DNA of 64,000 nt from Marinobacter arenosus (GTDB taxonomy: Bacteria > Pseudomonadota > Gammaproteobacteria > Pseudomonadales > Oleiphilaceae). The DNA lies in contig NZ_JAHVAO010000001.1 of the NCBI RefSeq assembly GCF_019264345.1, positions 682,001 to 746,000 on the forward strand. The letters are read 5' to 3'. Below the pieces are notes generated by a model. It had not been told where the DNA came from. It did not search any database and worked only from the letters and a program-made list of their open reading frames with translations. Below, piece by piece: positions 1-12,562 of this stretch. Position numbers and translations under genes: made by a program. Numbering within the stretch: the stretch's first letter is position 1; each line of letters opens with the position of its first letter.

Positions 1-619
1 TCGTGGAGGACTGCAACCCCGCCCACAACTCATGATCTTCCCGCACCTCGAGCCCCAGTTTGGAAATCTGATACTGGGTCTCTTCCTCCCAGCCAGTCGC
101 ATCGGCGGCGTTCGAGGTACCGGATGAATGGTTGAAAAGGCTGCTCAAGGAGAACCCACGCCAGGAAAGCAGCGGGCGACTGCCGCTGATTCTGAAGGCA
201 TCGTGTTCACTTCTGGCGTCAAATCTGTTTCCTTCACCAAGACTAACCCCGGCCCAGTCGCTGTTCTCGAATTCCATGCCGACATCGAAGTCGAGTACCG
301 AAAGTCCGTAATTCAGAATCAGAGAACTGGATTCAAGGTTCTCCCGGCGGGAAACGCTGTCACGATAATTCAGCCCAATCCGGTGCTTTGACCAGCCCAG
401 ATCGTCGCTCGCAAAACCAAGACTGCCGTACGCGCGGTCGTCCTCGTGACTGGACGAACCTGTGACCTGGACCTTCGACGCCACATACCGCGCCACAGAG
501 GGCAGCAGTTCGCCCGGGTAGGCTTCTGAAACCCCATTTGCGCCTTCATAGCCCGATGCGGCGCCCACATTGATGAGTGAAATGCACAGAATCAGTGCAA
601 AAAAACGGGTGACTCGCAC
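1..619 (-). CDS. Outer-membrane beta-barrel protein, possibly TpsB/ShlB-like (partial, cut by window edge)
   Basis: An open frame of 206 codons runs from a GTG at 619 off the left edge. The GTG has AAGGA 7-8 bases upstream, and no in-frame ATG gives a better start. The first about 20 residues form a signal peptide (VTRFFALILCISL core, Ala-rich end). The rest is rich in alternating polar and hydrophobic stretches typical of outer-membrane beta strands. It loosely resembles the barrel of two-partner secretion transporters of the ShlB/FhaC type, but no POTRA domain lies between the signal peptide and the first strands. The family call is an impression. A general porin-like barrel is the alternative. 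A possible promoter is TTGCAC, 17 bases, TATTTT just upstream on the minus strand. Confidence 0.5.
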   Translation of the reverse strand, partial: MRVTRFFALILCISLINVGAASGYEGANGVSEAYPGELLPSVARYVASKVQVTGSSSHEDDRAYGSLGFASDDLGWSKHRIGLNYRDSVSRRENLESSSLILNYGLSVLDFDVGMEFENSDWAGVSLGEGNRFDARSEHDAFRISGSRPLLSWRGFSLSSLFNHSSGTSNAADATGWEEETQYQISKLGLEVREDHELWAGLQSST

Positions 620-952
620 TCGCAATCCTTCGGGAGGTGACCAAAATATGAACAGCACTTTATCTGTGCAAGCGTCCCGAATGCCAGCCCGAATGACCAA
701 AAATTACATTTCTTAATATCCGGGAATACATGCTGTTATGCATGTTTCTGCAAGTTGATTGCGAAGTGTTTCAGAGTGTAACCAGAAGCCCATCTGGCAA
801 CAATTCAGTTACCGTAGCTTACGCTTGAGCCCTGGCCCTCCATTTCAGTCGGCAACTTCGTTAAACTCGGCACAGTTTGTGTTTAGGCTAAAGTGAAAAG
901 CTTGGAAGACTCCCATTCAGGGGATGTGAACGCTCAAAAAAGGACGAATTCC
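620..952. other. Divergent intergenic region between the barrel gene and galU
   Basis: These 333 bases hold no convincing gene. They are more AT-rich than the flanks and must carry the promoters of both the leftward barrel gene and rightward galU. For galU a weak candidate is TTAAAC, 17 bases, TAGGCT around 861-890. A short inverted repeat, CATGC-N6-GCATG, lies near 730. I see no tRNA, terminator with a T run, or small ORF with a good ribosome site. Confidence 0.4.
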
Positions 953-1789
953 ATGATCAAGAAATGCCTGTTCCCCGTTGCCGGATATGGCACCCGCTTT
1001 CTTCCGGCCACCAAGGCCATGCCGAAGGAAATTCTACCGGTCGTGAACAAGCCGCTGGTGCAGTACGGCGTGGAAGAGGCCGCAGAAGCCGGAATCCATG
1101 AATTCGGTTTTGTGACCGGGCGCGGCAAACGGGCCATCGAGGATCACTTCGACATCAGCTACGAGCTGGAGCATCAGATTGCAGGCTCCGGCAAGGAAGA
1201 TTTGCTCGCTTCAATTCGCGACCTGATCGACAACAATACGTTTGCATTCACCCGGCAGAATGAAATGAAGGGCCTCGGCCACGCCATTCTGACCGGCCGC
1301 AACCTGGTCGGAGACAACCCTTTCGCGGTGGTACTGGCCGATGATTTCTGCCTGGGCCCGGATGGTGACGACGGCGTACTGGCCCAGATGGTCAAACTCT
1401 ACAATCAGTTCCGTTGTTCCATCGTTGCCATCGAGGAGGTTCCGGAAAACGAGACCCACAAGTACGGTGTGATCGCGGGCGAGTCCATGAAAGATGGCCT
1501 CTATCGAATCACTGACATGGTTGAGAAGCCCGCGCCGGAAGACGCGCCCAGCAACCTCGCGATTATCGGCCGGTACATCCTGACTCCGGACATTTTCGAC
1601 ATCATCGAGCGAACGCCCGCAGGCAAGAACGGCGAAGTCCAGATTACCGATGCCCTACTGGAACAGGCTAAAAATGGGTGTGTACTGGCTTACCAGTTCA
1701 AGGGACGCCGCTTCGACTGTGGCAGCATTGACGGTTTCGTGGAGGCCACGAATTACGTCTATGAGAATATCTACAAGAAAGGAAACTGA
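953..1789 (+). CDS. galU: UTP--glucose-1-phosphate uridylyltransferase
   Basis: This 278-residue protein has the family's usual length. It makes UDP-glucose from UTP and glucose-1-phosphate in the cytoplasm, feeding LPS, polysaccharide and the ugd and galE reactions encoded elsewhere in this window. The N-terminal nucleotidyltransferase signature is intact: FPVAGYGTRFLPATKAMPKE at residues 8-27, followed by the PLVQYGVEEA stretch. The start is the ATG at 953, with AAGGA 9 bases upstream. A longer frame reaches back to 893 but has no ribosome site and adds an unrelated tail. It is followed by an opposing regulator gene. Confidence 0.95.
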   Translation: MIKKCLFPVAGYGTRFLPATKAMPKEILPVVNKPLVQYGVEEAAEAGIHEFGFVTGRGKRAIEDHFDISYELEHQIAGSGKEDLLASIRDLIDNNTFAFTRQNEMKGLGHAILTGRNLVGDNPFAVVLADDFCLGPDGDDGVLAQMVKLYNQFRCSIVAIEEVPENETHKYGVIAGESMKDGLYRITDMVEKPAPEDAPSNLAIIGRYILTPDIFDIIERTPAGKNGEVQITDALLEQAKNGCVLAYQFKGRRFDCGSIDGFVEATNYVYENIYKKGN

Positions 1790-1804
1790 GTTAACAGAGG
1801 TCCG

Positions 1805-2221
1805 CTAGCCACCCAGGATCTGAAGGATCATGCGCCGGTTTTCTGTGGAAGTATTGCGAAACCGGCGCAGCAGTTCCACTTCTTCCTCCGACAGCTGAAC
1901 CCGGTTAATTTCCTGTTCCAGCTGTTTGATCGCGACGGAAAGGTCGTCGCTGTTGCTGAACGCCAAACCCGGTAACTCAAGCTGTCCACCACCGCCGGGC
2001 TCCTCCAGATCGAGCAGAACGTCAAGGGGCGTTTCGGTCCGCATGCAGAAATCGAGCAGTTCCGTCACACTGGGGTAAGTTCGCTGCCTGGCATCGGTTG
2101 CTTCCCAGCTTCTGACCCGGGTCTCCTCCACGCCGCACATCTGGGCGACATCCCATCGAGAGAGCCGGCCGTCCTCCCGAATCTGGCGCAAGCGACGATT
2201 GAACGTTTGCAGGTACCGCAT
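1805..2221 (-). CDS. Helix-turn-helix (XRE-like) transcriptional regulator
   Basis: This 138-residue cytoplasmic protein has an N-terminal HTH (about residues 5-35, with RLSRWDVAQMCGVEE as the recognition segment), followed by a Trp-containing helix as in XRE/Cro-type domains. The C-terminal half is acidic, with a Leu-rich helix near its end (LSEEEVELLRRF) that may dimerise. The chosen ATG at 2221 has GAGG upstream; the longer frame to 2338 runs through the presumed promoter. It lies divergent to the RibD-like reductase gene, with two palindromes in the shared gap, so local control of the neighbouring cluster is a reasonable inference. The ligand is unknown. Confidence 0.75.
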   Translation of the reverse strand: MRYLQTFNRRLRQIREDGRLSRWDVAQMCGVEETRVRSWEATDARQRTYPSVTELLDFCMRTETPLDVLLDLEEPGGGGQLELPGLAFSNSDDLSVAIKQLEQEINRVQLSEEEVELLRRFRNTSTENRRMILQILGG

Positions 2222-2273
2222 AAGCTGGTTGCCTCTACCCTCAGCAGGGACGCCAGTGCATCTGGAGCCCGAT

Positions 2274-2287
2274 ACGATCCGGATCGT
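2274..2287. promoter_or_regulatory. Perfect 14-bp palindrome, candidate operator
   Basis: ACGATCCGGATCGT is a perfect palindrome. It lies between the divergent HTH regulator (starts 2221) and the RibD-like gene (starts 2382). It is in the right place for an autoregulatory operator that also controls the reductase gene. Binding is inferred only. Confidence 0.4.
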
Positions 2288-2311
2288 TCCGAAAAGTGAA
2301 TCAAACTGGAA

Positions 2312-2324
2312 ATGTAACGTACAT
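2312..2324. promoter_or_regulatory. Inverted repeat ATGTA-N3-TACAT, candidate operator
   Basis: A 5-3-5 inverted repeat lies in the AT-rich part of the divergent gap, 58 bases before the reductase start. It may be a second site for the adjacent regulator or part of the promoter. No clear -35/-10 pair can be fixed around it. Confidence 0.3.
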
Positions 2325-2381
2325 ATAGCTTTGCACACAATCGACCTTTAATGAATCCAACGGCGACGGAACAGGACGTTT

Positions 2382-3245
2382 ATGGCTGCACACCCCCTGG
2401 ACACCGAGACTGCCTGGCAACTGGTACTGCAAGCGGTCAATCGCAGCAACGTAACACTGGCGGTGCCGGAAACCAGCGAGGCGGCGGTGAGGCTAAACGG
2501 CCGGGGAGCGTGGCATCTCCTGCACCCTGCCACAGACAAAGCCAATGACCTGCTTTCCCTGTTCCTTCCCCTGTGCCGACCTCTTGAGGACGGCACCGTC
2601 TCCCGCGTAGTCGGACAACTCGGCCAAAGCCTGGATGGTCGAATCGCGACGGCAACCGGGCACTCCCGGTTTATTAACGGTGCCGACGGCATCACCCACC
2701 TGCATCGCATCCGCGCCGTTTCAGACGCTGTCGTTGTTGGCGCCGGGACAGCGACAACCGATAATCCAAGGCTGACTGTCAGACGCGCTCAGGGGCCCAA
2801 CCCGGTTCGCGTCGTCATTGACCGGCATCGTCGGGTTCCGGACAGCCACCACCTGTTCACCGATGGCGAAGCCCCTACCTTGAGGCTGGTAGCCGGAACG
2901 TACCGGCCAAACCGCCCAGCCAGGATTGAAAGCGGTGTGACGGAAGTCCCCTGTCTGGGGCCCTGTCATGACAGCGAGACAGTGTGCCCGACCAACATAC
3001 TTCGGGTGCTGGCTGACTTCGGCCTCCGCAAGGTCTTTGTTGAAGGGGGCGGCCTGACCGTGTCCGCCTTCCTTCGGGCTGGCGTACTCGACCGCCTTCA
3101 TGTCATGGTCGCGCCCATGATCATCGGAAGCGGCAGACCGGCTTTTTCTCTCCCGGAAATTGACCTGCTGGAGGATGCGCTGCGTCCAAGGTCCCAACTG
3201 GTCAATCTGGGCAGTGATATGCTCTTTGATCTTGATTTTTCCTGA
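2382..3245 (+). CDS. Stand-alone RibD C-terminal (pyrimidine/pterin reductase-like) protein
   Basis: This 287-residue protein has a RibD_C reductase domain from about residue 75 to the end. It shows the family's hallmarks: QSLDGRIA near 82, the DAVVVGAGTATTDNPRLTV segment, PVRVVIDR, and the C-terminal FVEGGGLTVSAFL loop. The N-terminal cytidine-deaminase half of true RibD is absent and is replaced by about 75 residues of unclear nature. Family members reduce a ribosylamino-pyrimidine with NADPH, and relatives act on pterins. ATG 2382 has AGGACG upstream. The 3' end overlaps the opposing gene by 44 bases. Neighbours suggest a role in a dedicated pathway, not bulk riboflavin synthesis; this is inference. 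Confidence 0.82.
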   Translation: MAAHPLDTETAWQLVLQAVNRSNVTLAVPETSEAAVRLNGRGAWHLLHPATDKANDLLSLFLPLCRPLEDGTVSRVVGQLGQSLDGRIATATGHSRFINGADGITHLHRIRAVSDAVVVGAGTATTDNPRLTVRRAQGPNPVRVVIDRHRRVPDSHHLFTDGEAPTLRLVAGTYRPNRPARIESGVTEVPCLGPCHDSETVCPTNILRVLADFGLRKVFVEGGGLTVSAFLRAGVLDRLHVMVAPMIIGSGRPAFSLPEIDLLEDALRPRSQLVNLGSDMLFDLDFS

Positions 3246-4197
3246 CCGGGTCCCGCGCCCCACTCCCGGCCTGCTTGAGCCGGACGGTCAAAAACACCAG
3301 ACCTGGTAGTGTGGACAGGAAAACGAGGGCGCCGTAACCGACGCTCAAAGCCACACCCTGCTCAGGCGGCAATCCCGCCATTGGCCAGAGTACGGCAGCC
3401 GCCCCTTCCCGAACGCCCCAGCCTGATACGGTGACTGGCAAAACCATGCTCAGTAGAAGAAGACAGCAGAGTGCAGCGGTCAAGATCATGGCGTTCCAGC
3501 TCGTGAGATGCCCCGCCCCATAAGCCAGAATCAAAAAGACCGCCAGGTAGCTGGCGAGGACGAGCACAGAGGAGCCCATCTGAATCGGGAAGGCCGGCCA
3601 GGCCACCAATGTCCGAACGATGTCTCGCCAGAGACCCCGGAGATAATGCCTCGCGCCGCGGCTGGAACGAATCAAATATCGGCCCAGAAGAAAAACCACG
3701 ACCACCAGGCCCACCAGCCCCCACATCCACCATGGAGACTCCGGGGGCACGACGCCCACCTGTGCCAACCAGGACACAGAGATCAACACCGCGAGGCCCA
3801 GAACCAGTTGGCCGGACAACCGCTCGATGGCAACCCCGTGCATCGCATACAGCGGCTGACCACTGGCCCTGCCGTGCCGCCATGCCCGATTCACATCCCC
3901 CAGCACCCCGCCCGGGAGCACCTGGTTCAGGAAACTTGCGATGTAATACTCACGTAGCGCCACGCGGTACGTCAGCGAAACGCCCAGACGTCGCGCGGTA
4001 TACCACCAGCGCCCGGAGGACAGCAGCACCTGGAGCACGGTGATAGCCAATGCGGGCAGCAGGAGGTCGATGGGCATCTGCGACAGCTCCTGCCACAGCG
4101 TTTGTCGATCGACTGACACAAGCACAGCAGCCAACAGGCACAACGCCACTACCCACTTGAGTAGCGGACGGCGTACTCGGTGCCCCTTCCCCTTCAT
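3202..4197 (-). CDS. Integral membrane protein, lysylphosphatidylglycerol synthase TM family (UPF0104-like)
   Basis: This 331-residue inner-membrane protein has about eight hydrophobic segments. It carries the family's conserved region: SGRWWYTARRLG, then YYIASFLNQVLPGGVLGDVNRAWR and ERLSGQLVLG in the first half. The family (PF03706) includes the flippase half of MprF and many proteins next to glycosyltransferases. There is no aminoacyl-transferase domain here. Its ATG overlaps the stop of the upstream glycosyltransferase gene by 4 bases, so the two are translationally coupled. The likely role is transport or flipping of a lipid or conjugate made by the cluster, but the substrate is unknown. 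Confidence 0.8.
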   Translation of the reverse strand: MKGKGHRVRRPLLKWVVALCLLAAVLVSVDRQTLWQELSQMPIDLLLPALAITVLQVLLSSGRWWYTARRLGVSLTYRVALREYYIASFLNQVLPGGVLGDVNRAWRHGRASGQPLYAMHGVAIERLSGQLVLGLAVLISVSWLAQVGVVPPESPWWMWGLVGLVVVVFLLGRYLIRSSRGARHYLRGLWRDIVRTLVAWPAFPIQMGSSVLVLASYLAVFLILAYGAGHLTSWNAMILTAALCCLLLLSMVLPVTVSGWGVREGAAAVLWPMAGLPPEQGVALSVGYGALVFLSTLPGLVFLTVRLKQAGSGARDPVRKNQDQRAYHCPD

Positions 4198-6134
4198 TCC
4201 GACGCGGCCCCCGGCAAGGCCAGCAAGTCCAGATGTTGTACAGTGACGGACAGCGCCCCTTTTGCGAGCTGAGCCTTACGCCCCTCCCACCATTCGGTCA
4301 ACGACGCCCGAGCGCCGGGGTCCTGCTCGTTGGCCGCCTCCACCCACCCTTCAAGCAACCTGCCGATCAAGAGCCTGTCCCTCGCTCCCAGGCGCCAGGG
4401 ACTTTCGGCAACGGAGACGGTATAGCCGGCAGATTCCATCAGATCTTTCAGGACCCATGTGGCCTCGGCGCCCAGTGCGCGCCCCACACCCTTATCACGA
4501 TGCTGGTGCCGGTTAACCAATTCACGGATGCGTTGGTCGTGTTCATGGGGCGGGTCCAGCTCAAACTGGCCCGCGTAACTCAGCACCACCAGTAGAGCCG
4601 ATTTCCGGCATACAACAGCCTCGACCAGCGCCTTGAGCCATTCCGCTGAAACCAGGTCGATCAACGCAGACGCGGTTATCAAAGCGGCCTCAGTGGGAAT
4701 ATGGCGTCCCAGTGAACCCGCAGCCAGCTGAACAACGGAGTGGGACAGTTCGATGTCCGGCGCTGTCGGCCGCCTCCGGGCGTCCTCCAGCAGGGCGACG
4801 TCCTGGTCCAGCAATAACCAGCGCTGGCGAACCTGCAACTGTGGGATGAGGTACGCAGCATTGGAGCCGCGACCCGCACCAAGATCGACAATGGTAACGG
4901 ACGATCCCGGACTGCCTGTCTGTCGATGCGTCGGGTAATCCATGTCCAGCCAACGGGCCAGAGCCCTCGTCAGTTTTTCCGAGCGTGCAGCGTGATCGGC
5001 CCCCTCGCGCCAGCGAAGCCAATCAATATCGAAGGCGCTTTCTTGCCTGACGCCCAACAAATCCTCCAGGGCGGCCTTAAATTCGACGGCTGCCTGCCGC
5101 CAATGTCTCAAACGGCCCGATTCCCGCCGCGCAAGGTTCGTCTGACGGGCCAACTCCTGAGGGTTCGCCAACCAGTATCTCAGCCGGGCAGACAAAGCCG
5201 CGACGTCACCCGCCTCATACTGAACGACGCCACCACGCATGGCCGTTTGCGCCAGCGCACCGCCACTGGATGTAATCACCGGGAGGCCCGCGGCCAGGGC
5301 TTCATCAATCACCATCCCATAGCCTTCGTAGAGCGACGGAAACACGAACAGATCAGCTTGACGATAGAGATCAAACAACTGATCGCCACTCACCTCACCC
5401 GTAATGTCCACCCGACTTTGGAGGCCCCGGGATTCAATCTGGGATCTGACACGCTCACTGTAATCACGCTGCCGATCGCAAGAGCCGGCCAGGGTGCAGT
5501 GCCAGGGCAGCGACCTCAATTCGGCCAACGCATCGATCAGTTGATGCTGGGCTTTGCGCGGCGACAAATGGGCCACACACAGAATACGAGGTGGTTCGCC
5601 GGGACCGCGAATAGCATGGTCGGTTGTCGAAGACCCTGGAAATGACTGCACACCCGGCTCGACGGTCCGGATGTTTTGCGCAGGAACCCCGAAGTCCGCC
5701 AGCCGCTCGGCAGTGAACCTGCTGGTGGTGATTACTTTGCCGACTGCCGCCAGGGACCGAGTCTCCTGTGCAAAAAACCACCGCTGCTCCTCAGCGGTCA
5801 GGCCCGTTTCATCCGCCAGCGGGTGATGCACCAGCGCAATCAGGCTCAGTCGCGAGGCATGGGCCTGGACGACCTCGGGCAGGCCGCCCATAGCGAGACC
5901 GTCAAGTACGACTACCGCACCATCGGGATAGCCCTGCAGACAGTCATCCAACGCGGCCTTCGCTTCTTCATCAGGCCGAGGGAAGCGCCCAGGCACACCG
6001 GTAACGCGCGCCATGCCATCCGATTGGTTCAAAGCCTCGACCAGGAGCCGGACATAGCGGTAGCCGCCTGTATTCTGGTTCGGGTCCCCGGGGACCACAA
6101 ACTCGACCTCCCAGGGTGTCTCAGATCCCGGCAT
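4194..6134 (-). CDS. Glycosyltransferase (GT4)-methyltransferase fusion protein
   Basis: About 646 residues with two catalytic parts. The N-terminal half (to about residue 365) is a GT-B, GT4-type glycosyltransferase. It has an N-terminal glycine-rich loop (NQNTGGYRY), a linker PRILCVAHLSPRKAQ, and the E-x7-E donor site in EGYGMVIDEALAAGLPVI. The C-terminal half (about 390-640) is a class I SAM methyltransferase with motif I VDLGAGRGSN. It resembles families acting on small molecules more than protein methylases. The ATG at 6134 overlaps the upstream PTPS-like gene by 14 bases; a TTG at 6152 is an alternative. It is coupled to the downstream membrane protein. Substrates cannot be read from sequence. 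Confidence 0.78.
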   Translation of the reverse strand: MPGSETPWEVEFVVPGDPNQNTGGYRYVRLLVEALNQSDGMARVTGVPGRFPRPDEEAKAALDDCLQGYPDGAVVVLDGLAMGGLPEVVQAHASRLSLIALVHHPLADETGLTAEEQRWFFAQETRSLAAVGKVITTSRFTAERLADFGVPAQNIRTVEPGVQSFPGSSTTDHAIRGPGEPPRILCVAHLSPRKAQHQLIDALAELRSLPWHCTLAGSCDRQRDYSERVRSQIESRGLQSRVDITGEVSGDQLFDLYRQADLFVFPSLYEGYGMVIDEALAAGLPVITSSGGALAQTAMRGGVVQYEAGDVAALSARLRYWLANPQELARQTNLARRESGRLRHWRQAAVEFKAALEDLLGVRQESAFDIDWLRWREGADHAARSEKLTRALARWLDMDYPTHRQTGSPGSSVTIVDLGAGRGSNAAYLIPQLQVRQRWLLLDQDVALLEDARRRPTAPDIELSHSVVQLAAGSLGRHIPTEAALITASALIDLVSAEWLKALVEAVVCRKSALLVVLSYAGQFELDPPHEHDQRIRELVNRHQHRDKGVGRALGAEATWVLKDLMESAGYTVSVAESPWRLGARDRLLIGRLLEGWVEAANEQDPGARASLTEWWEGRKAQLAKGALSVTVQHLDLLALPGAASE

Positions 6135-6519
6135 GGTAACTGGCCCAGGCAATGTGAGACTCAGAGAGGGTCACTTTCAGGCTGGCAATACCCTTGCCCG
6201 ACTCACCGAGTCGCCCTGCTCGAATCGCATCCGCCATTCGCTCGAAAACGACGCTGGCCATGAATTCGGTGGTGGTATTACGGCCTTCGAATGCCTCAAT
6301 CTGATCGAGGTTCTGCATGGTAAATTCCCCAAGCACCTCCTTGAGAACGGTCGATGCCAGGCCGATGTCCACCACCAGATTGTCTGAGTCCAGTTGCTTC
6401 CGCTCGAACGAAACGTCGACCACGTAGGTGGCCCCGTGAAGCTTCTGAGCCGGACCAAATATTTCCCCATTAAAACTGTGCGCAATCATCATGTGGTCGC
6501 GAACGGTCAGACTGAACAT
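6121..6519 (-). CDS. PTPS/QueD-family protein with degraded active site
   Basis: This 132-residue protein has the T-fold layout and length of 6-pyruvoyl-tetrahydropterin synthase/QueD. The first zinc His (H14, AHSF), H28 of the LHG motif, D51, E85 in TTTE and E120 in LSES are kept. Three key positions differ: the catalytic Cys is Ala24, the second zinc His of HGH is Ala30, and the His of the LDH catalytic pair is Gln73. So canonical QueD or PTPS chemistry is unlikely. It may bind a pterin, catalyse something else, or act as a non-zinc variant. It sits between the dehydrogenase and fusion genes in one leftward operon. A normal queuosine role is not supported. Confidence 0.8.
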   Translation of the reverse strand: MFSLTVRDHMMIAHSFNGEIFGPAQKLHGATYVVDVSFERKQLDSDNLVVDIGLASTVLKEVLGEFTMQNLDQIEAFEGRNTTTEFMASVVFERMADAIRAGRLGESGKGIASLKVTLSESHIAWASYHAGI

Positions 6520-6546
6520 AGAAAATCCTCTAACAATGAAGGCGGG

Positions 6547-7548
6547 TTAATAGGCAATCCGGTGACAGAGCGTGTGGTTCACATCGGCAAGAATGCCGGC
6601 CATCTTGTCAGGCAGGTCGGTAAACTGGCTCTCACCACTGATCAGGCAGTCCAGTCGCTCATCGCCGAGCAACTCCAGGGCCAGCCGCATGCGCCTGGCG
6701 TGGTCCCAACGGGAGCGACGGAGCGGAGGCAACTGGCCAACCTGACTGGACCTGAGCGTCAGCCTTCGAGCATGAAAAGCGCCCCCCAGGTTCGCCGGCA
6801 CAGACTGGTTGCCGTACCAGCTCATTTCGACGACCACGGATTCCGGGCCGGCCAGTGCAAGCGCGGTCTCCAGTCCGGAAGGATGACCGCTGGTGTGATA
6901 CACCAGATCGTGGTCATCCTGTGAGAGGGTGGATGCGAAACTCAGCCCCAGTGCTTCTGCAATCGGCCTTCGATCTTCGTTTATGTCCACCGCTGTCACC
7001 CGGGCACCCGGTATCTGGTCGGCCAGCCAGGCCACCAGGAAACCCACCACCCCCAAACCAACCACCGCTATCCGATCGCCGATGGCGGGCTCGCCGTCCC
7101 AGAGCCCGTTCACGGCGGTTTCCATGTTCGCCGCAAGCACTGCACGAGCGGGGGGTACGGATTCAGGGACAAGGGTGACGGCGGTCGCCGGAACCCGATA
7201 CCGCTGTTGATGCGGGAAGAGGCAGAAGATCGGTTTTCCGGTCAGGTGCGACGGCCCGCTCGTGACCATCCCCACGTTCGCGTAACCGTATTTCACGGGA
7301 AACGGAAAATCCCCGCCCTGGAACGGCGCCCGCATGCGCTCGTATTCCGTTTCGGGGACCCGACCATTAAGCACCAGCGCCTCGGTTCCCCGGCTAATGC
7401 CGGAATAGAGGGCTTCCACGGTCACAATCTCGTCCGAAACTGAAGCCACGCTGGAATCAATCGTTGTTTCCAGCAAGGCCCCCTTCCCCTTATTCGTCGC
7501 CCACCAGGCCAGCGTCGTTTCCGAGGTCCCCTCAGTTTCAGGTTTCAA
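6547..7548 (-). CDS. Medium-chain dehydrogenase/reductase, zinc-independent type
   Basis: This 333-residue cytoplasmic MDR-superfamily protein has the N-terminal SGISRGTEALVL region and a Rossmann site VVGLGVVGFLVAWLA, then an acidic residue (AVDINE) that points to NAD(H). The GHE zinc motif is replaced by KYGYANVG, and the four-Cys structural zinc lobe is missing. That pattern resembles BchC-like and other Zn-free or atypical MDR enzymes. The start is a TTG at 7548 with GGGAGAG 5 bases before it. An in-frame upstream start at 7602 has no such site. First gene of the leftward operon with the PTPS-like protein; substrate unknown. Confidence 0.78.
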   Translation of the reverse strand: MKPETEGTSETTLAWWATNKGKGALLETTIDSSVASVSDEIVTVEALYSGISRGTEALVLNGRVPETEYERMRAPFQGGDFPFPVKYGYANVGMVTSGPSHLTGKPIFCLFPHQQRYRVPATAVTLVPESVPPARAVLAANMETAVNGLWDGEPAIGDRIAVVGLGVVGFLVAWLADQIPGARVTAVDINEDRRPIAEALGLSFASTLSQDDHDLVYHTSGHPSGLETALALAGPESVVVEMSWYGNQSVPANLGGAFHARRLTLRSSQVGQLPPLRRSRWDHARRMRLALELLGDERLDCLISGESQFTDLPDKMAGILADVNHTLCHRIAY

Positions 7549-7623
7549 TGAACTCTCCCTGCGTATGAACGGCGGATTTGAGTCCGAACGGCCGTCTCCC
7601 ACGTAAGCACATTCAGGCGTAAC

Positions 7624-7635
7624 AAACTATAGTTT
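7624..7635. promoter_or_regulatory. Perfect 12-bp palindrome in divergent promoter region
   Basis: AAACTATAGTTT is a perfect palindrome in the 143-base gap between the leftward dehydrogenase gene and the rightward CDP-alcohol phosphotransferase gene. Its position suits an operator coordinating both arms of the cluster. Binding is inferred. Confidence 0.33.
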
Positions 7636-7691
7636 CTTGCTGGGTGCACGACGGCCCTGCAGACCTCAAGGCTATACGCTGGAGTTTTGGT

Positions 7692-8426
7692 ATGGATTCT
7701 AAAGGCGACTCGGCTTCCCATGGCCTGACTGCACTGCAGGACCTGGCGTGGGCGTTCGTTCTGACCGCCGCCCTGAGCTCTATGGTGGCGCTGCTTTGGT
7801 CGCTCCCTGCGCTCTTCTGGATCATCGTCGCCGGGCTTTTCAGCACCCTCGGCGGGTGTGTGCTTCGCGTTTGGTCGCCCCATGGGATTATCGGGCCAGC
7901 CAACCGGGCCACACTGTTGAGGGCGTCGCTGGTCATTGTTCTGTTTGCCAGTGCACCGTTCATGAACGGCGTCGGAGCTGGCGTCTGGCTGTATGGAACG
8001 CTCGCCCTCCTGGCACTGATTCTCGACGGGGTGGACGGTGCCATAGCCCGTGCAACCAACTCCCAGAGCGAGTTTGGCGCCCGCTTTGACATGGAACTGG
8101 ATGCTGCATTCATTCTGGGGCTCTGCCTGGCGGTTATCGCGCTGGGCAAGGCCGGCCTGTGGGTACTTACGCTCGGCTCTATCCGCTATGGGTTCGTTCT
8201 CGCCGGTCTGAGGTGGCGCTGGCTCAATAACCCGCTTCCTGACAGCTTCCGGCGAAAAACCATCTGTGTCTGGCAAATCGTCACCCTGATGGTCGCTATA
8301 TTGCCGCCCGTCCTGCCCCTCTTCGCCAGCCTCACACTGGCAACGGCCCTGTTGTTGCTGATCTGGTCGTTTTACATCGATATTGTCTGGCTCTATCAAA
8401 GGAGAACCGCTCATGAACCTGCCTAA
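7692..8426 (+). CDS. CDP-alcohol phosphotransferase family membrane protein
   Basis: This 244-residue inner-membrane protein has about six hydrophobic segments. The complete CDP-alcohol phosphotransferase signature is visible: D112, D115-G116, A119-R120, G129, D133 and D137, preceded by a GPANRATLLRA stretch. The family transfers a phospho-group from a CDP-activated alcohol to an acceptor alcohol, as in phosphatidylglycerophosphate, phosphatidylserine or inositol phosphate synthesis. The acceptor is not predictable here. ATG 7692 has GGAG upstream, while the longer frame to 7644 lacks a site. It overlaps the YceI gene by 14 bases and is transcribed divergently from the dehydrogenase operon. 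It is unlikely to be the housekeeping PgsA. Confidence 0.85.
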   Translation: MDSKGDSASHGLTALQDLAWAFVLTAALSSMVALLWSLPALFWIIVAGLFSTLGGCVLRVWSPHGIIGPANRATLLRASLVIVLFASAPFMNGVGAGVWLYGTLALLALILDGVDGAIARATNSQSEFGARFDMELDAAFILGLCLAVIALGKAGLWVLTLGSIRYGFVLAGLRWRWLNNPLPDSFRRKTICVWQIVTLMVAILPPVLPLFASLTLATALLLLIWSFYIDIVWLYQRRTAHEPA

Positions 8427-9030
8427 CATGACTGCGCACCTCGCCTGCACGGCTGCCTTTCCTGCACTCCTCGCCATGACGCCGGTGGTTTCGGCCGAGC
8501 CGTCCAGATTCACCGTCGATTCGGAACATTTTTCCATGGCTTTTGAAATCATGCACATAGGCTACGCGCCAGTCATTGGAATGTTTCGTGAAGTGGAAGG
8601 CGAGTTCGTTTATGACGAAGAAACCGGCGAACTCAATTCAGGCACCCTGGTGTTTCAGAGTGAGAGCGTTTTCACAAACCACAAGAAGCGTGACGACCAC
8701 TTACGGGCGGAGGATTTTCTGGACAGTGAGAACTACCCTGAGATCACCTTCACCCTGACCGACTTCGAACCAACCGGGGAGAACGCGGGTAAGGTAACCG
8801 GCGACCTCACCATGCTGGGCCAGACCAACCCTGTTGTCCTGGATGTCACCCTCAACAAATCGGCCGTCTACCCCATCGGGCACGAGGACTTTACTTTGGG
8901 AATCAGTGCCGAAACGACCTTGAAACGGAGCGATTGGGGAATGACCTATGGGCTGGATCCGGCCCTGGTGGGTGATGAAGTCCGCCTGCGTTTCGGGTTC
9001 GAGGCCAATCGCGATTCCGGGTGGTTCTGA
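8413..9030 (+). CDS. YceI-family periplasmic lipid-binding-like protein
   Basis: This 205-residue protein has a signal peptide (residues 1-29, ending VVSA) and a YceI lipocalin-like barrel. Conserved features include SRFTVDSEHFSMAFEIMH near the N terminus, the TNHKKRDDHLRAEDFLD stretch, and SDWGMTYGL near the C terminus. YceI proteins are periplasmic and bind isoprenoid or other amphiphilic ligands. ATG 8413 has AAGGAG 8 bases upstream. The start lies inside the end of the CDP-alcohol phosphotransferase gene, so the two are probably coupled. A periplasmic lipid-binding partner would fit a lipid-linked product; that is inference. Confidence 0.88.
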   Translation: MNLPNMTAHLACTAAFPALLAMTPVVSAEPSRFTVDSEHFSMAFEIMHIGYAPVIGMFREVEGEFVYDEETGELNSGTLVFQSESVFTNHKKRDDHLRAEDFLDSENYPEITFTLTDFEPTGENAGKVTGDLTMLGQTNPVVLDVTLNKSAVYPIGHEDFTLGISAETTLKRSDWGMTYGLDPALVGDEVRLRFGFEANRDSGWF

Positions 9031-9169
9031 TCCCGGCCGCTATTTTGTGACCGACCCCTCATCGTGAACACATTTTGTTACATTGATGCCTCAAAGCTCT
9101 GCCGGGCTTCGCTGAATATCTGTATGTTTATTAGCCACAAACAAGACAAAAATAACAAGGAATCGACGG

Positions 9170-10243
9170 ATGCCCGGCAAGGCGCTCCTACTGTTCATGG
9201 CTGTGACGACCTGCGCGTTTGGCACAGGCTACTATTTGTCCGCCGACAATACCTCCACATTCAAGTGGCTGGTCACCGGCTTTGCCGACCGGGTCCAAGA
9301 CGATGTTCCCGGCGATCAGGTCAGCGACAATCCACATTCCCCGAGTAAGGCGCCCGAACCGCTGCAACCCGGTGACAATGCGCTTGGTTTCATGCTCACC
9401 AGTGTCGCCGAGCAATACACTCAGAATTCTCGCTATCCGTCCTGGTCCATTCCCCTCACAGCAGCGCAGGCCAAGGGCTATCAAGGCAACCACTATCAGC
9501 CTGTCGAACTCCCGCTTGGTAACGATGGCCGTTTTACGGTCACTCTGGAGAAATACCGGTTTACCAAAGGCGAGCCTATTCTCGTGGTCGCCTCGGTTCA
9601 GGGTCCGCAAGTTGTGGGCGACACGCTTCAGGCGACACTGGAAGCAGCCCAGGTACGAGAGGCGGTCGGATCAACCACCCTCACGATGTCGGATAGCACC
9701 GGCTTTTATGAAGGGTCCCTGGCGTCGGATGAGGCCCCCGGGGAGTACCGGCTCATAGTCGAGGCGCAGGTGGATGGCAAACCGGTGAGACACGTCTCAA
9801 CGCTGACTATCGAACCCTACCTGGGAGATTTTGAAGGCCTGGGGGATCCCTACCTGAACGACAACAACCTGGTCATCCCCGTTCGTTTCCACCCGGAGCA
9901 GCCAGGGTTCTATGCGCTGTCCGCCCAGTTGTTCGCCGGGCTGGTCCCTATCGCCCAACTCCAATCCGAACAACGTGTGGACCTTGGCACGGAAACGATC
10001 GAACTCAAAGCACACGGAACCGTGCTGGCAAACCGCGACATTCAGGGCGAGCTCGAGATTCGAAACCTTCAGATTCGCCAGCTCCCGTCCAGGCCCGGAG
10101 ATCGAACCCACTACGCATTCGGGCCAGAAGATGGGTATTCATTTACGCCGCCGGACCTCGGGGATCTGCAGGATTCTCCGGCAGCGGATTCCGAATCAGA
10201 ACAACGGGCGGCCCTGCTCAGGCAGTTAGCCGACAAGTTCTGA
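9170..10243 (+). CDS. Secreted beta-rich protein next to lipase (choice-of-anchor/DUF4785-like)
   Basis: A 357-residue protein with an N-terminal hydrophobic signal or anchor (about residues 4-24). A linker rich in Pro, Ser and Asp follows, then a long beta-rich region with Ig-like repeats: extended stretches such as RFTVTLEKYRFTKGEPI and GEYRLIVEAQVDG. The C-terminal part includes THYAFGPEDGYSF. No catalytic motif is visible. Similar proteins lie beside extracellular lipases in marine bacteria, as far as I recall, and may assist their display or stability. It lacks the helical make-up of Lif-type lipase foldases. The start has AAGGA 7 bases upstream. Family name uncertain. Confidence 0.62.
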   Translation: MPGKALLLFMAVTTCAFGTGYYLSADNTSTFKWLVTGFADRVQDDVPGDQVSDNPHSPSKAPEPLQPGDNALGFMLTSVAEQYTQNSRYPSWSIPLTAAQAKGYQGNHYQPVELPLGNDGRFTVTLEKYRFTKGEPILVVASVQGPQVVGDTLQATLEAAQVREAVGSTTLTMSDSTGFYEGSLASDEAPGEYRLIVEAQVDGKPVRHVSTLTIEPYLGDFEGLGDPYLNDNNLVIPVRFHPEQPGFYALSAQLFAGLVPIAQLQSEQRVDLGTETIELKAHGTVLANRDIQGELEIRNLQIRQLPSRPGDRTHYAFGPEDGYSFTPPDLGDLQDSPAADSESEQRAALLRQLADKF

Positions 10244-10367
10244 CAGCGGGGCCGCTCTGGCTCCGAACCGGCTGACGCCGGGTTGTACCGTCGGAAAGAC
10301 CTTCAGTGCCTGAGGTCGACGGGTAATCGTCTTTTCACAACAATAATTCAGCAAAGACGGAGCAAAC

Positions 10368-11456
10368 ATGACAACAACGATGATCGGAAGTGCCTGCAAG
10401 GCCGCTGTCGCGGTCACAATCACCGGTAGCCTGTTTGCCGGCAGCGCCCAGGCCCAGTTGGCTGGCCATAATGTGATACTCGTGCATGGCTTTCAGCAAG
10501 AGGACCTGGCAAACCCGCCAGAGAACCTCCAGGCCGTGAAAGCGGCCGGCGAAGATTACTGGCGCACGTTCTGGCTGGCCCGGTCCGAGGCCCGAGTGGA
10601 CTGGGGGAGCGATGGCCGGATCGAAGGCAATATTGCCCAACAGGCGTATCAGCAGATCCGCCAGATCAGCCAGCAGGGCCTGTGCAACAACTACTGCATT
10701 ATTGTGTCTCACTCCACCGGCGACCTCGTGACGCGGTATCTACTTGAGAATCAGGCTCGCTGGCTGCAGTCGGAAGGGCTCGCACCCCTGAAAATTCTCG
10801 CCGCCATCGACTATTCCGGTGCCGGCGGAGGGACCGAACTGGCCGACCTCGCTCTCAGCATTGCCTACAACGACAGTTGGTATAACTGGCCGTTGAAAGC
10901 CGCCGTGCAAGCCTTCACTGGCATCGAACCGGAACCCGGGAAACTGGGGGTGGTTAACGACCTGCAGACCAATGCAGCCCGCAACCTTGCGATCAGCCCG
11001 AATGCCATCCCCAGGCTTCGTTTTGTCGCTGGCGGCTCGTCCTACGGAGGCGTGACAAAGCCCTTTATTGCTGGAACTGACGATGGGGTCGTGCCCACCC
11101 ATTCCGCCTGCGGTTCGACGACCGCTGATGGGATCGAATCCTGCTCCGACCAGATCAGCCTGGCCGGCAAGGTCACCAACCAGAACGGGCCGGACGGACT
11201 CTGGTTCAATCACTTCCCTATCCTGATGAACGAAGGTGCAAGCCACAGCGGCGTGCTGGGTTCGGAAACCGGGAATACCTCGGTACCGGTGGTGAACAAC
11301 ACAACCCTGAACGGACTCCGGCTCGACTTTGCCAGCCGAACCTACAATCAGCGGGCCTGGTGGCAATGGTGGGGGTCTGGCGACACCTACATTGAAGTAC
11401 CGGGGTCCGATCAGACCGACATGTCGACATTGGTCTACACCACACTCAACAACTGA
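10368..11456 (+). CDS. Secreted alpha/beta-hydrolase, triacylglycerol lipase/esterase
   Basis: This 362-residue protein has a signal peptide cut after AQA at about residue 29. The oxyanion HG (residues 40-41 in VILVHGF) and nucleophile Ser116 in SHSTG mark the alpha/beta-hydrolase fold. The first Gly of the usual GxSxG is a Ser here. Candidate acid and base residues lie in GTDDGVVP and EGASHSGVLG. Cys106/Cys110 and a later CGS...SC pair could form disulfides, in line with export. It probably hydrolyses lipids or esters outside the cell. The start has GGAG 9 bases upstream. It follows the beta-rich partner gene by 124 bases on the same strand. Confidence 0.82.
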   Translation: MTTTMIGSACKAAVAVTITGSLFAGSAQAQLAGHNVILVHGFQQEDLANPPENLQAVKAAGEDYWRTFWLARSEARVDWGSDGRIEGNIAQQAYQQIRQISQQGLCNNYCIIVSHSTGDLVTRYLLENQARWLQSEGLAPLKILAAIDYSGAGGGTELADLALSIAYNDSWYNWPLKAAVQAFTGIEPEPGKLGVVNDLQTNAARNLAISPNAIPRLRFVAGGSSYGGVTKPFIAGTDDGVVPTHSACGSTTADGIESCSDQISLAGKVTNQNGPDGLWFNHFPILMNEGASHSGVLGSETGNTSVPVVNNTTLNGLRLDFASRTYNQRAWWQWWGSGDTYIEVPGSDQTDMSTLVYTTLNN

Positions 11457-11488
11457 CTGGGAAGTCCGCTGATTTCACGAGGAAAATC

Positions 11489-11506
11489 GGGCTCAAGGAC
11501 GAGCCC
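11489..11506 (+). terminator. Weak hairpin after the lipase gene
   Basis: GGGCTC, 6-base loop, GAGCCC lies 32 bases after the lipase stop. It is followed by a C/T-mixed stretch instead of a clean T run, so termination would be weak. Confidence 0.3.
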
Positions 11507-11611
11507 ACCCCATTCTTCCACCCTATCTCACCTTCCCTTTTTTGTTCGCAAGCTATACATTGTCCCGTTTTCGGTCTTTCGGTCGCCGACCGACGCTCAC
11601 ACGGGTTTACG

Positions 11612-12562
11612 ATGTCCGACGCTCGCAAATCAGACGTTCTGCTGGTAGCCGTAACGCTTGCAGCCGCTATCAGCTGGATGTTTTCCAAGGAGGCCGTCCT
11701 GCTGATGCCTCCACTGCTTTTCATGGCCGCGCGCTTCCTCATCGCCGGCAGTGTTCTCGCCTTCGCGGCCTGGCGCCCGTTATCACGGTTGAGTACAGAT
11801 CAGATCCGGCGCAGCATTGCCGTCGGCCTGGTATTCGGTATCGCCATGAGTTTCTGGGTCATGGGCCTGTTCCACACCAAAAGCATGGGTGAAGGTGCAT
11901 TCCTGACCAGCCTGGGGGTCGTGATCGTCCCCATCATTGCCCGCCTGGCCTTTAAGGAGAAGCAACCTGCGAGTACCTGGATCGCGATTCCCATTGCGGT
12001 CTGCGGCCTGGCTCTGCTGTCCCTGAAAAATGGCTTTAACCCCGAACCGGGGCAACTTTTCTTTGTTTGCGCCGCCTCTATCTTTGCCCTGTACTTTACC
12101 CTGAACACCCGGGCAGCCAATCAGCGAACCGTCATCAATCGACGAGGTGAAACGATTGAAAAGCACCGAGTGCCGGCGTTACCTCTCACTGCCCTGGCCC
12201 TGTTAACGGTTGGAACGGTGACGCTGCTGGAATCCCTGGTTCTGGAGACCTGGCAGGAAACATTTGTGGACCCCTCCCCCCTTCTGGTTTGGTGGGTGTT
12301 GGCAAGCGCGCTCATTGGAACGGCGGGGCGGTTTCTGTTACAGACATACGCCCAGAGTCTGTCTGCCCACAGTCACGGCGTGGTTATCCTGGTACTTGAG
12401 CCTATTTGGGTTGCATTATTCGCTGCCGGCTGGTTTGGAGAGACAATGAGTTCGGTTCAACTGGGCGGATGTGCACTTATTTTCACTGCGCTGGTGGTCA
12501 ATCGGTGGGGGGCAATTGGCAAAGCCATCAAGACCGGGTTGAGGAATCGGAAAACCGCATAA
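11612..12562 (+). CDS. EamA-family (DMT) drug/metabolite transporter
   Basis: This 316-residue inner-membrane protein has ten hydrophobic segments in two halves, the EamA duplicate layout. Characteristic pieces are the N-terminal VLLVAVTLAAAISWMFSKEA helix, the LTSLGVVIVPIIARLAFKEK segment ending the first half, and VILVLEPIWVALFAAGWFGE near the C terminus. The family exports amino acids, nucleotides or drugs, or moves other metabolites; the substrate is not predictable. The ribosome site before ATG 11612 is weak. It is followed closely by the tRNA-Val promoter. Confidence 0.88.
   Translation: MSDARKSDVLLVAVTLAAAISWMFSKEAVLLMPPLLFMAARFLIAGSVLAFAAWRPLSRLSTDQIRRSIAVGLVFGIAMSFWVMGLFHTKSMGEGAFLTSLGVVIVPIIARLAFKEKQPASTWIAIPIAVCGLALLSLKNGFNPEPGQLFFVCAASIFALYFTLNTRAANQRTVINRRGETIEKHRVPALPLTALALLTVGTVTLLESLVLETWQETFVDPSPLLVWWVLASALIGTAGRFLLQTYAQSLSAHSHGVVILVLEPIWVALFAAGWFGETMSSVQLGGCALIFTALVVNRWGAIGKAIKTGLRNRKTA

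Follow-up and report, generated by a model that had tools for sequence, protein, structure and literature searches.

The 64,000-nucleotide stretch of Marinobacter arenosus DNA analysed here (the window, hosted by a genome of 4.11 Mb) carries a compact set of genes at about positions 2382-9030. They encode a RibD_C-type pyrimidine reductase, a flippase-like membrane protein of the LPG_synthase_TM family (LPG_TM), a fused glycosyltransferase (GT) and methyltransferase (MT), a degenerate relative of 6-pyruvoyl-tetrahydropterin synthase (PTPS), a dehydrogenase of the medium-chain dehydrogenase/reductase (MDR) family, a CDP-alcohol phosphotransferase (CDP-OH) and a YceI-family protein. We conclude that this set is a real, widespread and patchily distributed biosynthetic unit, probably with a GTP-derived ring. 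Our best explanation, to which we give about an even chance, is that Marinobacter has here its own version of an orphan biosynthetic cluster of wide distribution that uses such a ring.

Conservation of the grouping

The case for a unit begins with how often its genes are found together. A scan of the genome_contigs collection gave at least 585 relatives of the PTPS-like protein, and the 80 loci that we analysed are the best of these by similarity, not a random set. Among these best 80, 77 have five or more of eight scored domains within 6.5 kb around the gene (the PTPS-like gene being included in the score), and 47 have seven or eight; one has four, and two have the PTPS-like gene alone. A less biased sample came from 274 genomes drawn from the class and searched with the PTPS-like protein (E ≤ 1e-8). 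Sixteen matched, namely the window's own genome, 11 strong matches (E 2.1e-28 or better) and four weak, QueD-like ones (about 1e-9). At least six of the eight domains are present in nine of the 11 strong loci (L017-L027), and of the other two, one has four domains on a contig that ends there and one has three. Two of these loci, L025 and L027, retain all eight domains although their genomes are small, the one of about 1.0 Mb (96% complete) and the other of about 1.1 Mb (99% complete). The grouping is beyond doubt and far above chance. The original prediction of a coherent biosynthetic cluster is therefore borne out by this neighbourhood search, in which five or more genes co-occur and the scattered homologues of a chance neighbourhood were not seen.

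Profile counts were made over 102 loci (the 80 best and 11 class-drawn loci, 91 in all, plus the window and 10 plasmid loci), excluding the weak QueD-like loci (L028-L031) and retaining loci with a solitary PTPS-like gene (L078, L107, L114, L122). Matches were taken anywhere in a locus, so that for generic families (GT, CDP-OH, sulfatase) a few of those counted may come from genes outside the cluster. PTPS is matched in 102, MDR in 97, GT in 96 and MT in 94, followed by CDP-OH (82), RibD_C (76), LPG_TM (72) and YceI (31). GTP cyclohydrolase II (47) and a creatininase-family protein (44) are recurrent neighbours, and this recurrence is directly observed. FkbM (23), sulfatase-like (20), OpgG (18), OpgH (16) and cytochrome b561 (4) genes also recur near the cluster, the sulfatase and cytochrome b561 profiles having been built from just two and three sequences. 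One protein annotated as a sulfatase had no Pfam match at 0.001, and another (in L039) had one.

The grouping recurs in Gamma-, Beta- and Alphaproteobacteria and in Actinomycetota, as well as in one Acidobacteriota bin and one Gemmatimonadota bin. Carriers include Halomonadaceae, Thioalkalivibrio, Variovorax, Streptomyces and Micromonospora. A PTPS-like relative was present in 21 plasmid records, among them plasmids of Methylosinus, Peteryoungia and Microbacterium; of 10 examined, eight have cluster neighbours and two have the PTPS-like gene alone. Pattern matching in viral_contigs gave 41 hits, with no relative among them.

Within the genus, the cluster is a patchily distributed unit that is gained and lost as a block. 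Of 100 genomes, one of them the window's own, 62 have the PTPS-like gene, 61 have MDR and 59 have RibD_C; the full trio occurs in 59, and 37 have none of these genes. Discordance is limited to G289 and G364, which have the PTPS-like gene only, G314, which has MDR only and is 62% complete, and G316, where the contig ends 1.3 kb past the start of the PTPS-like gene and the MDR match is split over two frames. An empty site, GalU-HTH-hyp9-lipase-DMT, is seen in three cluster-negative genomes (L139, L140, L142), with 167-261 bases from the helix-turn-helix (HTH) gene to hyp9 and the cluster absent. The remaining seven of the 10 cluster-negative GalU regions keep GalU in all cases, HTH in six and hyp9 in none.

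These comparisons also set the limits of the unit. The HTH gene (1805-2338), which the original prediction had placed inside an interval starting at 1805, lies beside GalU in nine of the 10 cluster-negative regions. It persists without the cluster, and we therefore exclude it and place the unit at about 2382-9030; the HTH gene could still act as a regulator. GalU and hyp9 were rejected as members too, as few loci outside the genus have them. These outside neighbours served as a built-in control, and GalU, HTH and hyp9 appear in only 9, 7 and 6 of 96 scanned loci, a scan that included the weak QueD-like loci. Set against this control, the conservation across phyla and the gain and loss as a block, a chance neighbourhood of unrelated genes, for which we found no point in favour, has a negligible probability.

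The PTPS-like gene is at times found by itself. Lone copies occur in two genus genomes at L135 8031-8444 and L136 7834-8238, both adjoining HTH and GalU; the former lies between hyp9 and HTH, which is the cluster site and the position of the PTPS-like gene in G289. Others are the solitary loci (L078, L107, L114, L122) in Streptomyces, where two plasmid copies have MBL-fold and cupin genes close by. Such a solitary gene could function independently of the cluster or be a remnant. In two genomes of the genus, shortened RibD_C matches were seen at G336:C1:173238-173945 and G317:C1:3222663-3223187, one with an in-frame TGA, and reflect possible decay of the unit or assembly error.

Gene identities and the PTPS-like protein

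The PTPS-like T-fold protein (6121..6519, minus strand) is the most telling member of the set. It matches PF01242 at 1.7e-22 (80.1 bits against a cut-off of 22.4), and its nearest solved relative is 3d7j_A, the SCO6650 protein of Streptomyces coelicolor, with a profile E of 6.2e-58 over positions 1-131, the full length; the next chain is at 1.4e-07. The full-length match places it in the SCO6650 family. We compared 102 family rows with four QueD-like controls (L013-L016) at residue positions that we assigned on the assumption that they correspond to the PTPS catalytic residues. The catalytic Cys site (position 24) is Ala in all 102 rows and Cys in all four controls. At the dyad sites, His is never found at position 68 and Asp occurs at position 67 in 5 of 102 rows, whereas all four controls have Asp-His. 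Two zinc-site residues, His14 and His28, are present in every row, whereas the third zinc site, position 30, carries Ala in 101 rows and Thr in the remaining one (HGH in 4/4 controls). Glu120, which we take from PTPS structures to anchor the 2-amino-4-oxo ring, is invariant in the family; it is Glu in two controls and lies beyond the aligned part in the other two. The protein thus belongs to the same Pfam fold family as PTPS and QueD and shares two zinc His and the ring-anchoring Glu with them, yet lacks the catalytic Cys, the dyad His and the third zinc His throughout. The description of a degenerate PTPS was correct in detail. Since the QueD active site is lost, database names such as 6-carboxytetrahydropterin synthase are misleading for these genes.

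The original prediction identified the genes well, and all those it named are open frames where it placed them. The RibD_C-type reductase (2382..3245, plus strand) matches PF01872 at 3.2e-40. The reductase domain of a bifunctional RibD is therefore present and the deaminase domain absent, RibD_C being the sole Pfam match in the 287-residue protein; TIGR00326 matches through model positions 142-341 only, below its cut-off. The nearest solved relative by sequence is 6p8c, a 2,5-diamino-6-ribosylamino-pyrimidinone 5'-phosphate reductase (E 2.8e-26). The LPG_TM gene (3202..4197, minus strand; PF03706, 1.6e-37) converges on RibD_C from the opposite strand with an overlap of 44 bases (3202-3245). 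It also overlaps the fusion gene by four (4194-4197). The fusion overlaps the PTPS-like gene by 14 (6121-6134), provided that it begins at ATG 6134, and a second overlap of 14 bases (8413-8426) joins the CDP-OH and YceI genes. All four overlaps had been given correctly.

The fusion protein (4194..6134, minus strand) joins a GT4 glycosyltransferase (Glycos_transf_1, 4e-30) to a class I S-adenosylmethionine (SAM) methyltransferase. Its frame is open from TTG 6152, and ATG 6134 is the likely start. Neither Pfam nor NCBIfam gave a match to the methyltransferase half at E 0.001, and its assignment comes from the predicted fold (pLDDT 94; Foldseek E 1.3e-11). Many class I methyltransferases match at similar scores, and the fold therefore does not tell the substrate. 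A fused GT-MT reading frame is present in 23 of 74 loci (among the best 80 of at least 585), including all eight from Marinobacter, and in none of 10 class-drawn loci.

The MDR dehydrogenase (6547..7551, minus strand) probably starts at TTG 7551, within an open frame beginning at GTG 7602. It resembles BchC and the polyol or aldonate dehydrogenases: ADH_zinc_N matches at 5.9e-06 (26.7 bits, below the cut-off of 31.8), NCBIfam bchC matches at 1.2e-12, and the model (pLDDT 92.9) finds L-idonate 5-dehydrogenase as the top Foldseek match (E 3.4e-19) amid many MDR enzymes at about 15% identity. It differs from these enzymes in falling far below the bchC cut-off (47.7 bits against 291), in that low identity and in having no zinc Cys. 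Across 31 rows a single Cys is invariant or almost so, the C-terminal C329, away from the positions where we presume zinc-binding Cys would be expected in an MDR protein, and the N-terminal motif in the window is SGISRGTE. In the dehydrogenase tree, the window row falls in a starred set of nine rows, the remaining eight of which are from Marinobacter.

On the plus strand, the CDP-alcohol phosphotransferase (7692..8426; PF01066, CDP-OH_P_transf, 4.4e-15) has a complete D-x2-D-G-x2-A-R-x8-G-x3-D-x3-D motif, the signature of its family. It is followed by the YceI-family protein (8413..9030; PF04264, 1.2e-41), with an N-terminus that looks leader-like by eye. Downstream, a 357-residue protein at 9170-10243 has no Pfam or NCBIfam match and is kept beside the gene at 10368-11456 (lipase-like by eye) in genus genomes with and without the cluster.

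The CDP-OH and dehydrogenase genes point away from each other across a gap of about 7552-7691, which shortens to 7603-7691 with GTG 7602 as the dehydrogenase start. Of the divergent promoter proposed earlier, the divergent arrangement stands, whereas a sigma-70 scan of the gap found no consensus promoter. The gap does hold a conserved palindrome, AAACTATAGTTT (7624-7635, assigned to neither strand), a candidate operator or symmetric -10 element. Its core, ACTATAGT (7626-7633), is the sole copy in the 64-kb window, where chance would give a mean of 0.12. The core is present in the divergent gap of seven of nine Marinobacter loci and nowhere else in those nine; it is absent from 48 other divergent gaps examined and has six copies in total across 87 other loci. 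The gaps of L035 and L036 hold two further near copies. The AACTATAGTT pattern occurs at one other genomic site, between glycosyltransferase-like and membrane-protein frames, against five for a control pattern, and we therefore dropped the idea of a palindrome regulon.

Probable entry from GTP and the proposed route

A likely entry to the pathway is GTP. Cyclohydrolase II and creatininase are often found together: of 91 loci, 39 have both, each one is alone in four and 44 have neither. This co-occurrence may be due in part to shared descent. The cyclohydrolases themselves are informative at a FAPy/APy switch residue, the position of which we assume in the cluster proteins. SCO6655, a GTP cyclohydrolase II, is said to stop at the formylamino compound owing to Met at this residue. 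In 42 cluster cyclohydrolases (loci L018-L110) the residue is Met in 8, Tyr in 31, His in 2 and Ile in 1. All eight Met enzymes are actinobacterial and have a creatininase, as do 27 of the 31 Tyr enzymes; three Micromonospora cyclohydrolases have Tyr and no creatininase. A rule of Met with creatininase and Tyr without thus fits these actinobacterial loci and fails for many others with Tyr and creatininase. Two cluster creatininases that we scanned fall below the ArfB, MftE and creatininase cut-offs. In S. meliloti, the creatininase-family protein BrbF removes the formyl group from the formylamino compound that lies between GTP and the diaminopyrimidinone nucleotide (PMC9478397).

The window genome has neither gene in its cluster. 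Two GTP cyclohydrolase II frames (251 and 391 residues) lie on other contigs, the shorter with Tyr at the switch, and no creatininase was found in the genome. The one lumazine synthase match (PF00885) lies on contig C4, outside the window and adjoining the longer cyclohydrolase II. Because both cyclohydrolase II genes and lumazine synthase are on other contigs, we regard the cluster RibD_C as an extra copy.

We propose a model in which GTP would be opened in a riboflavin-like manner by GTP cyclohydrolase II, which is cluster-borne in nearly half of the loci. In the window genome, the ring would probably be opened by the housekeeping RibA, yielding the 2,5-diaminopyrimidinone nucleotide directly, and elsewhere the creatininase-family hydrolase would deformylate where required. 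The dedicated RibD_C enzyme would then reduce the pyrimidine intermediate. The PTPS-like protein, having lost PTPS catalysis and kept the ring-anchoring Glu, may act with the zinc-less MDR enzyme to remodel the ring or a side chain, after which the methyltransferase would methylate and the GT4 enzyme glycosylate the product. The CDP-alcohol phosphotransferase could form a phosphodiester between the product and a lipid or polyol; LPG_TM could flip it and YceI could handle it in the periplasm. We infer every chemical step of this route, above all the lipid linkage and export, and offer the lipid-linked end as a proposal. We assign the core chemistry to MDR, PTPS-like, MT and RibD_C, and decoration and export to the other genes. 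The modified pterin-like or lipid-linked product of the original prediction would be compatible with the cluster.

Neighbouring genes point to the envelope as the destination, in particular OpgH/OpgG, FkbM, sulfatase-like and cytochrome b561. OpgH/OpgG adjoin the cluster in several Halomonadaceae and a Gemmatimonadales bin, and OpgH does so in Methylosinus. In the window genome, an OpgG-OpgH-OpgG-like run lies 1.4-7 kb beyond GalU (L124 3824-9468, past the window's left end).

Several observations weigh against a GTP-derived ring passing through this route. In a linkage tree of 70 rows with enough flank, cyclohydrolase II and creatininase each change eight times and give just two strictly independent pairs, leaving the test underpowered. 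Among the 37 cyclohydrolases beside a creatininase, the switch residue is Tyr in 27, Met in 8, His in 1 and Ile in 1; given Tyr in so many, the formamidase step is not simply explained there. RibD_C is present in only nine of 23 actinobacterial loci (among the best 80 of at least 585). We searched eight actinobacterial genomes for it, seven picked for a locus without RibD_C and one as a positive control, and those seven have no ortholog elsewhere, just relatives at 29-34% identity or none. The RibD_C step is therefore replaceable. Two Rhodobacterales plasmids have the MDR-PTPS-MT-RibD genes but neither CDP-OH nor LPG_TM, and the core can therefore do without the lipid end. A search for pterin and flavin riboswitches was negative in window positions 1-12000, where one chance match was far under the gathering score (E up to 1), and 14 loci scanned at gathering scores gave only tRNAs. 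Finally, we know of no product or activity for the whole cluster.

Alternative explanations, known relatives and meaning

An unlikely, though not trivial, alternative is a tetrahydropterin route, in which the T-fold protein would carry out an Amadori rearrangement or ring closure, so that cyclohydrolase II, creatininase and the T-fold protein together replace cyclohydrolase I. RibD_C, with its dihydrofolate reductase-like fold, would reduce a dihydropterin, MDR would reduce the side chain and GT would make a pterin glycoside. T-fold proteins of this type are relatives of GTP cyclohydrolase I and FolB, and pterin glycosides are made by cyanobacteria and Chlorobium. The invariant anchor Glu suits this route, as does Rv2671 (4xrb), a RibD-like match of the RibD_C protein that we take to act as a dihydrofolate reductase. 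The actinobacterial genomes that have the cluster without a RibD_C ortholog would also be expected if another enzyme reduces. However, RibD_C is nearest to pyrimidine nucleotide reductases, the PTPS catalytic Cys and His are all lost, and the window genome already encodes one GTP cyclohydrolase I at a distant site, so that no replacement is needed there.

It is rather doubtful that the genes form an envelope glycolipid or periplasmic-glucan decoration operon whose RibD_C and PTPS folds have been co-opted to act on something other than a pterin or pyrimidine. The repeated OpgG/OpgH, FkbM, sulfatase-like, CDP-OH and LPG_TM neighbours and the lost PTPS chemistry would be consistent with such an operon, but cyclohydrolase II and creatininase, each in more than 40 of the 102 loci, indicate a GTP-derived ring, and the Rhodobacterales plasmids retain the core with neither CDP-OH nor LPG_TM. 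A second pathway to riboflavin or a flavin derivative, as a back-up supply or flavin analogue, would draw on the riboflavin-type enzymes present (GTP cyclohydrolase II, the deformylase-family protein and RibD_C). We consider it remote, as the PTPS-like, GT, MT and CDP-OH genes have no riboflavin role and a profile search of the window genome places its one lumazine synthase on another contig.

The preferred reading, a cluster acting on a GTP-derived ring, has partial precedents. Streptomyces loci share the MDR-PTPS-GT-MT core, there with cyclohydrolase II and creatininase, whereas Marinobacter has RibD_C, YceI and the GT-MT fusion, no local cyclohydrolase and no creatininase. SCO6655 is, we presume, the GTP cyclohydrolase II gene near SCO6650 in S. 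coelicolor, and both proteins have reportedly been studied biochemically (Spoonamore/Bandarian); SCO6650 is said to have no zinc and no PTPS activity and to keep its pterin-binding residues. The ArfA/ArfB/ArfC steps that lead archaea to riboflavin and F420, and likewise BrbF, follow a similar logic of cyclohydrolase, creatininase-family deformylase and ribosylaminopyrimidine reductase; our cluster differs in having no known flavin-forming steps and in adding the PTPS-like, MDR, GT, MT, CDP-OH and flippase genes. Given the S. coelicolor structure and work, the cluster is not wholly undescribed, as had been supposed: the PTPS-like protein has a relative of solved structure (PDB 3d7j). For the cluster as a whole, the open-access literature that we searched gave neither a description nor a product; subscription journals are mostly outside that scope, and a description in print is possible.

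It is tempting to speculate that the product represents a novel type of molecule in bacterial membranes, in which a methylated and glycosylated pyrimidine or pterin ring derived from GTP is attached to a lipid via a phosphodiester and displayed in the envelope as a headgroup with a redox or light-absorbing role, served by YceI and in some bacteria by a cytochrome b561. We regard this as a tentative possibility, with the chances leaning against it. In a broader context, four phyla or more carry the gene set, Acidobacteriota and Gemmatimonadota being represented by a single bin each, and in one collection one of its genes has at least 585 relatives. The cluster is whole in two genomes of 1.0-1.1 Mb, yet its PTPS-like gene is missing from 38 of 100 genus genomes, which speaks for a common but accessory function. 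Defining that function would give a purpose to the SCO6650 structure and to "QueD" annotations that have no QueD active site.

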